Shown: positions 13,580-41,752 of the stretch, one piece after another
How the letters are laid out: each line of letters opens with the position of its first letter
Position numbering within the stretch: the first letter of the stretch is position 1
NCBI RefSeq assembly: GCF_030244015.1
Contig: NZ_JASSYX010000001.1
Coordinates: forward strand, 1,054,001-1,118,000
From: Pedobacter ginsengisoli
Lineage (GTDB): Bacteria > Bacteroidota > Bacteroidia > Sphingobacteriales > Sphingobacteriaceae
Direction of reading: 5' to 3'
Length of the DNA stretch: 64,000 nt
Made by a program: the position numbers and the translations under genes
Notes under the pieces: generated by a model
What the model saw: only the letters and a program-made list of their open reading frames with translations
Database searches by the model: none
Told to the model about the DNA's origin: nothing

Positions 13580-13696
13580 TAACATTTTTTATTTTTGTAG
13601 AATGTTTATTTAATGTTTAAACATCTAATCTAAGCCGCCCCCTCCCCAGGCATATTTAACTTCACTGCAGTATATGGGTTGTACTTGTGTAGTAAG

Positions 13697-13812
13697 TGCG
13701 TTCGTACTGAGTACGTGGTGAGTGAACCCTGAATGCACGGTGAGTACGCCTTTTTTCTAGAAAAAAGGCGTACTCAGGGCGTACTCACCGCGTACTCAGG
13801 GCGTACTCAGTG
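13697..13812. repeat. 11-bp-period inverted-repeat element, copy A
   Basis: The right side has four tandem 11-bp units starting CGTACTCA at 13769, 13780, 13791 and 13802 (unit tails GGG, CCG, GGG, GTG). The left side has the complement TGAGTACG in the same 11-bp register at 13708 and 13741, with degenerate copies at 13697, 13719 and 13730. The centre is a perfect 36-base palindrome (13741-13776) whose core is T6-CTAG-A6. It lies between the stop of a thioesterase gene and the MATE promoter. No coding potential is seen. A second element of the same design, with a different unit, is at 41595-41663. Confidence 0.8.
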
Positions 13813-13869
13813 TCAACACATGTACCACACATGTAGGAACAGCAGGCAAGCCAGGATAAAAGAATTAAA

Positions 13870-22354: not shown

Positions 22355-22429
22355 ATCGTCATTGCGAGGTACGAAGCAATCTCAGTGTAAATGCTGACGG
22401 TAGATAGCTTCGTACCTCGCAATGACGAT
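22355..22429. repeat. Dispersed-type palindromic repeat (long hairpin)
   Basis: A 23-bp perfect inverted repeat (22355-22377 against 22407-22429) around a 29-base loop, followed by T6. The arm contains CGTCATTGCGAGGTACGAAG, a type of intergenic palindrome I recall as widely dispersed in bacterial genomes. It follows serA and may also act as its terminator. Other than this and the small gene after it, the 22281-22626 gap holds nothing I recognise. Confidence 0.75.
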
Positions 22430-41462: not shown

Positions 41463-41594
41463 TTTTAGGGCCAGGCTTGCATTATTGGCATATTATTTTT
41501 CGTTTATTGATCAGCAGTTATACTGACCAATACTTCGTAAACAATTCCGGTACAGCAGCAGATCAGTTCACATTCAATATACGAATATTTAATG

Positions 41595-41663
41595 TATAGT
41601 CCATGTTTTTTCATGAAAACGTGGACTATAGGTGGACTATACGTGGAGTATAGGTGGACTATG
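41595..41663. repeat. 11-bp-period inverted-repeat element, copy B
   Basis: Four tandem 11-bp units run from 41620 to 41663: CGTGGACTATA, GGTGGACTATA, CGTGGAGTATA and GGTGGACTATG. The left arm (41595-41605) is the complement of one unit with one change. Between them are T6, the self-complementary CATG and A4. The design equals copy A (13697-13812), but the unit sequence is unrelated. The rest of the 345-base gap holds only the upstream terminator and no recognisable gene. Confidence 0.8.
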
Positions 41664-41752
41664 GCAAAGCAATGTGTCTATTGTCCTTTACTTGATTTAC
41701 TAAAGAAGGTTGAGCAATGGGATCATGGAAGGTAAATCGTTAACTTAGCGCC

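Follow-up and report, generated by a model that had tools for sequence, protein, structure and literature searches.

Two four-unit arrays in the window

The window analysed here, a 64,000-nucleotide stretch of the Pedobacter ginsengisoli genome, contains two tandem arrays of 11-bp units, termed copy A and copy B (Table 1). A preliminary description, made from the sequence alone, had reported copy B as four units accompanied by an inverted unit and a T6-CATG-A4 centre, and this layout held: the TRF scores of the array, 81 (period 22) and 70 (period 11), exceeded the best of 60 Markov-1 shuffles of the window (TRF, periods 9-25: best 65, mean 45). The element is larger than initially described, the whole hairpin measuring about 110-190 bp, and it retains about 60 bp of gene leader on its low-coordinate side. 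No gene is left beside this relic, and the only members of the linked gene family in this genome lie elsewhere. Seven further homologues of copy B (82-95% identity) were found in the 4.83-Mb genome, giving eight copies in all. Copy A scored 84 (period 22) and 74 (period 11) in TRF and has about ten homologous copies in the genome. A simple microsatellite without partner copies is thus ruled out by the homologous copies of A and B.

Table 1. Positions of the features of copies A and B in the window
Feature	Position	Strand	Sequence and evidence
Copy A, whole imperfect palindrome	13682-13835	none	Palindrome score 35, arms of 77, lag-11 identity 0.53
Copy A, centre	13750-13767	none	CTTTTTTCTAGAAAAAAG
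Copy A, four 11-bp units	13767-13810	+	GGCGTACTCAG type; TRF; about 10 homologous copies
Copy B, gene-leader relic	41490-41547 (edges approximate)	-	Homologous to the pre-ATG stretch of the linked gene in L080 (=L003) and L083 (=L005)
Copy B, diverged rest of second arm and outer arm	41548-41594 (edges approximate)	-	Alignment with L002-L008; extended palindrome at 41612
Copy B, whole core	41595-41664		Four 11-bp units, one inverted unit and T6-CATG-A4 centre
Copy B, inverted unit (single, well kept)	41595-41605	-	TATAGTCCATG; sequence; palindrome at 41612
Copy B, palindrome centre, T6-CATG-A4	41606-41619	none	T6 41606-41611, CATG 41612-41615, A4 41616-41619
Copy B, four 11-bp units	41621-41664	-	GTGGACTATAG on the + strand, AGTCCACNTAT in the orientation of linked genes; homologous copies
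Copy B, unit 1	41621-41631		GTGGACTATAG
Copy B, unit 2	41632-41642		GTGGACTATAC
Copy B, unit 3	41643-41653		GTGGAGTATAG
Copy B, unit 4	41654-41664		GTGGACTATGG

As the preliminary description had claimed, both copies share one layout of four units, a step of 11 and a T/A-rich palindromic centre. Its further statement that the unit sequences do not match held only in part. In a common register (AGTaCgCCctg / AGTCCaCCtat) 6 of 11 bases are shared, at least six matches being expected by chance in 4% of cases in fixed register and in 34% with free rotation, and both unit types resemble the genus-wide unit AGTCCANNNNN. The two types are therefore likely to be diverged versions of a single design. 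The alternation of odd and even units is visible in A and B and failed as a general rule, with alternate units 0.807 and adjacent units 0.795 identical across 44 arrays (p=0.27, not significant). One family A copy (L025, 1470-1560), located near a tRNA-like sequence, is cut down to its outer arms and has lost the inner 11-bp units.

Unit number, step and distance are fixed

A de novo search for further 11-bp arrays, proposed in the preliminary description, was positive. Scanning 800 kb of contig C1 plus the window, we found 11 windows with lag-11 self-identity of at least 0.45 in the 800 kb of C1, as compared to none each at lags 10 and 13 and six at lag 12, a codon multiple; in these 800 kb, lag 11 stands out among the lags that are not multiples of three. 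The arrays recovered in this way carry other units (GTTCACACCTT twice, AACAGGGTAAT, TCCGTTCAACC and CTTAACCAAAC), and several lie on a palindrome arm.

Across 47 arrays, identity to the array consensus was 0.28 and 0.26 in the two positions before the array, 0.93, 0.85, 0.88 and 0.89 in the four units, and 0.25 and 0.30 in the two positions after it. Because this test selects the 44-nt window with the highest score, the inner values are inflated and the edges in part sharpened by that choice. We therefore used a second count, anchored at the T-run and covering arrays with more than one recognised unit. It gave four units in 48 of 58 arrays, five in six, three in three and two in one, so that four is essentially a constant unit number across dozens of genomes. 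The T-run/A-run centre seen in copy B recurs in gene-linked arrays, and the array ends a median of 118 bp upstream of the ATG of the linked gene (IQR 114-123). In the near-identical gene-less copies of one genome (G022), the outer units consist of seven bases pairing with the other arm and four unpaired bases.

In Rfam, five loci gave only matches that fell below the gathering score. In strand-specific folding, the antisense strand folded lower in 44 of 55 cases, but the G-rich arm alone could cause this and we make no claim. One subfamily (L082, L105, L107, L111, L131) has its hairpin farther upstream, centred at about -235 and with a CTAGTT-containing loop, and carries, between this hairpin and the gene, a distinct array of GGACA boxes spaced at about 10 bp.

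The arrays precede genes related to DUF6266

The first clue to a linked protein family, which the preliminary description had suggested looking for, came from three of the first copies, which adjoined genes starting M(G/A)K.DGK..RG..G. The corresponding family is unannotated, about 265 amino acids long and homologous to DUF6266 at its N-terminus. A family-alignment search found only three members in the genome, one of them truncated, and all three lie directly downstream of an A- or B-type array. Among 99 Pedobacter genomes, 60 contained a family match, with 0-10 copies each. A strict 11-bp array test was passed upstream of 46 of the 56 Pedobacter members with upstream sequence, as opposed to 2.25% of 488 control ORFs; some of these 56 loci duplicate the same gene, and not all are independent. 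By eye, nearly all Pedobacter members have an array, and all 24 named loci showed upstream lag-11 identities of 0.45-0.64. A copy of the upstream region 3' of the gene was absent in 50 of 56 members, the six matches being mostly short. The gene-bearing form thus has an array on its 5' side only, unlike an ordinary two-ended transposon.

By profile comparison, the first hundred residues match DUF6266 (PF19781; hhalign 92.5%, E 5e-7, columns 1-100). The linked family shares its basic N-terminal domain with DUF6266 and differs from it in being longer, in having another C-terminal half and sometimes a DUF1398 fusion, and in scoring below the gathering threshold of the Pfam DUF6266 model, which a true DUF6266 gene does match. 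This 4.8-Mb genome holds 35 DUF6266 matches, some as adjacent pairs. Arrays of 11-bp units also lie immediately in front of several true DUF6266 genes, some of them with unrelated units, and a DUF6266 locus from another genus (L261) carries six units of (G/A)CTAACTATAT. Many DUF6266 genes have no array, so linkage in DUF6266 proper is partial. No paper naming DUF6266 was found in the literature searched.

Searches of Pfam, NCBIfam, PHROG and PADLOC returned no match worth the name to the core domain; the better matches fall on a C-terminal extension (DUF1398), and the remaining ones are weak. No Pfam transposase match was found in 35 members, no relative in plasmid and phage collections, and no convincing solved structure by sequence. 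The AlphaFold model (pLDDT 86) predicts helices, a beta-sandwich and, with lower confidence, an N-terminal hairpin. A fold search against the PDB and viral models gave no match below E 0.001. The VIA-align rows comprised FN3/C2-like sandwiches (Z at most 5.8, mostly residues 119-242), which may reflect only a common arrangement. The predicted fold hence lends no support to a catalytic role in transposition.

The C-terminal half of the family differs among lineages. Proteins from P. hiemivivus and Pedobacter sp. ok626 (L112-L116, L127, L128) carry a C-terminal extension, which in L112 is a DUF1398 match (E 2e-37). The long family proteins of genome G063 (L121, L123-L126) end in a conserved peptide, GKPAA, and the DNA homology between these paralogues stops at about the stop codon.

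Unit sequence varies with the N-terminal domain

Residues 1-45 of the linked protein have a net charge of +8.7, the remainder being about neutral. Among 34 members below 85% identity, unit distance correlated with N-terminal distance (r=0.29, p=0.0003). The correlation persisted when the C-terminal half (partial Mantel r=0.24, p=0.002) or the leader (r=0.26, p=0.0007) was held constant. Conversely, with the N-terminus held constant, units did not correlate significantly with the C-terminal half in the same 34 members (r=0.07, p=0.19). The Mantel signal is modest and rests on 34 related members. In the absence of binding data, this co-variation supports, without proving, the inference that the N-terminal domain recognises the unit. 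The proposal of a constant layout with a unit sequence open to change, in the manner of a recognition code, is supported by these data; a unit wholly free to change is not, as most Pedobacter units share an AGTCCA core.

Gene-less copies are dispersed across genomes

We searched 98 genomes for AGTCCAN5AGTCCAN5AGTCCA, allowing one mismatch. The pattern occurred in 33 genomes, and its reversed control only twice, both times in one genome. It was found in 28 of the 39 genomes with a strong gene match versus 5 of the 59 others; in the 11 gene-bearing genomes without it, units differ where seen. Each genome uses its own unit, uniform inside the genome and variable among genomes, and the spacers likewise tend to agree within a genome and differ between genomes. 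As copies are related by descent, these counts are not independent.

Gene-less copies outnumber gene copies, with genome G094 holding at least 13 gene-less arrays against a single gene match. In G022, the nearly identical gene-less copies share one end point, the hairpin edge, and most solo copies of family B other than L001 lose homology near that edge. Gene-bearing paralogues with defined ends were found in P. hiemivivus, its relative ok626 and G063; their shared DNA starts at the array edge and stops near the stop codon, and the gene-bearing form therefore appears to be mobile too. No target-site duplication was seen by eye in the copies of G022 or G094, whose outer edges diverge. We found no clean empty site, and the genes flanking copy B are not together in the nearest sampled relatives.

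In another genome (G006), six of eight array copies (L029, L031, L032, L034, L035, L037) adjoin the same end of an IS3-family element, GGATAAGACA, about 16-22 bp outside the last unit, resembling IS elements that target REPs. Separately, another dispersed palindrome, CGTCATTGCGAGG..GAAGCAATCTC, is present at 22391 in the window and at 209450, 224690, 330200 and 368615 on C1; it resembles the CGTC-tagged repeats to which the title of PMC3733652 refers.

A candidate repeat-plus-protein system

Our main reading is that copy B represents a gene-less copy of a cis module of DUF6266-superfamily genes, which would provide sites for the linked protein and disperse in a REPIN-like manner. We assign this reading a probability of roughly 0.5. 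The data show gene linkage, a constant unit number, step and distance to the gene, dispersed copies and uniform units within a genome; recognition by the protein and the mobilising enzyme are inferred. The conserved module, which precedes nearly every family member at a fixed distance and has also spread by itself through many genomes, probably marks an undescribed repeat-plus-protein system, similar to REP/RAYT without being REP/RAYT.

The module is built on a long, imperfect hairpin. The arm more distant from the gene holds exactly four direct sites of 11 bp, or about one helical turn, each; the centre is a T-run/A-run, and a single site is inverted. In the proposed mechanism, the linked protein would bind the four sites side by side via its basic N-terminal domain, an inference made without binding data, and four sites bound on one helix face would yield a complex of fixed size. 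Gene-less hairpins may then be non-autonomous derivatives that, together with the resident protein, spread or act in trans, their mobility being inferred by analogy with REPINs and RAYTs. The mobilising enzyme may not be the linked protein itself, which shows no transposase-like domain or fold match.

Alternative explanations and known systems

A possible alternative is autoregulation, in which the array would serve the linked gene merely as operator or RNA leader and gene-less copies would be relics of lost or decayed genes. The fixed distance to the start codon, the gene leader kept by copy B and the truncated gene at L083 all speak for it. However, gene-less copies far outnumber genes in G094, those of G022 end together at the hairpin edge rather than at random points inside the gene, and most family B solos apart from L001 stop near that same edge. 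We consider it unlikely that an unrelated transposase, such as that of the adjoining IS3-family element, moves the hairpins as MITEs, with the gene as a passenger. The shared IS3-family end at six of eight copies in G006 and the lack of a transposase domain match in the linked protein would fit this scenario. Yet the IS adjoins arrays without bounding them, IS-free arrays exist, and its placement fits the targeting of REP repeats reported for IS elements (PMC1525189); moreover, gene linkage and N-terminal co-variation would remain unexplained.

Even less probable, in our view, is a locus resembling type III toxin-antitoxin systems such as ToxIN, in which the array would be transcribed as an RNA restraining the downstream protein. 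The position of a repeat array immediately upstream of a gene family with a patchy distribution is consistent with this idea, as is a unit specific to the gene lineage, a property reported for ToxI clusters (PMC8860590). In contrast to such systems, the units are 11 nt long and sit in a long hairpin, rather than being longer, pseudoknot-forming repeats, gene-less copies are common, and no toxin domain was found for the linked protein. PADLOC gave no match of note, and the fold matches included neither a ToxN-like row nor any confident hit, which is not a disproof. Finally, chance tandem duplication or a microsatellite has nothing in its favour beyond the shortness of the array and is all but excluded by shuffles, homologous copies, gene linkage and the fixed unit number.

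The preferred reading, a cis module dispersing with a cognate protein, most closely resembles REPIN/RAYT: in both, dispersed extragenic palindromes, mostly gene-less, match one beside a cognate resident gene, and the repeat type differs per genome (PMC3116915). The hairpins described here, however, span 110-190 bp and contain four direct 11-bp sites, whereas REPs measure 20-40 bp (PMC3733652), and the partner genes can be mobile and present in several copies, unlike RAYTs, which are described as single-copy genes (PMC3116915). The partner protein is, by Pfam, unrelated to RAYT. A PF01797 (Y1_Tnp) search of the own genome returned no matches, with control genomes positive. Since the RAYT domain is missing and the repeat has a different construction, we did not file the 11-bp array as a REP. 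Helically phased iterons are a further known arrangement, for example the 11-bp repeats of ParR/parC, which are direct repeats spaced one helical turn; the arrays share this spacing and differ in being chromosomal and dispersed.

Implications for the DUF6266 superfamily

A bolder reading, to which we give slightly less than an even chance, is that proteins of the DUF6266 superfamily are sequence-specific binders of four helically phased 11-bp sites in cognate hairpins. They would use a changeable N-terminal code and drive or control, in Bacteroidota, a new class of dispersed hairpins with an origin independent of REP/RAYT. The function of the DUF6266 family is unknown, and a fixed cis partner offers a way to test it directly. 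If confirmed, the system would join REP/RAYT as a natural example of repeats kept as a population together with a cognate protein encoded on the chromosome. Its naturally paired DNA sites and proteins would also form a series in which a recognition code could be deciphered.
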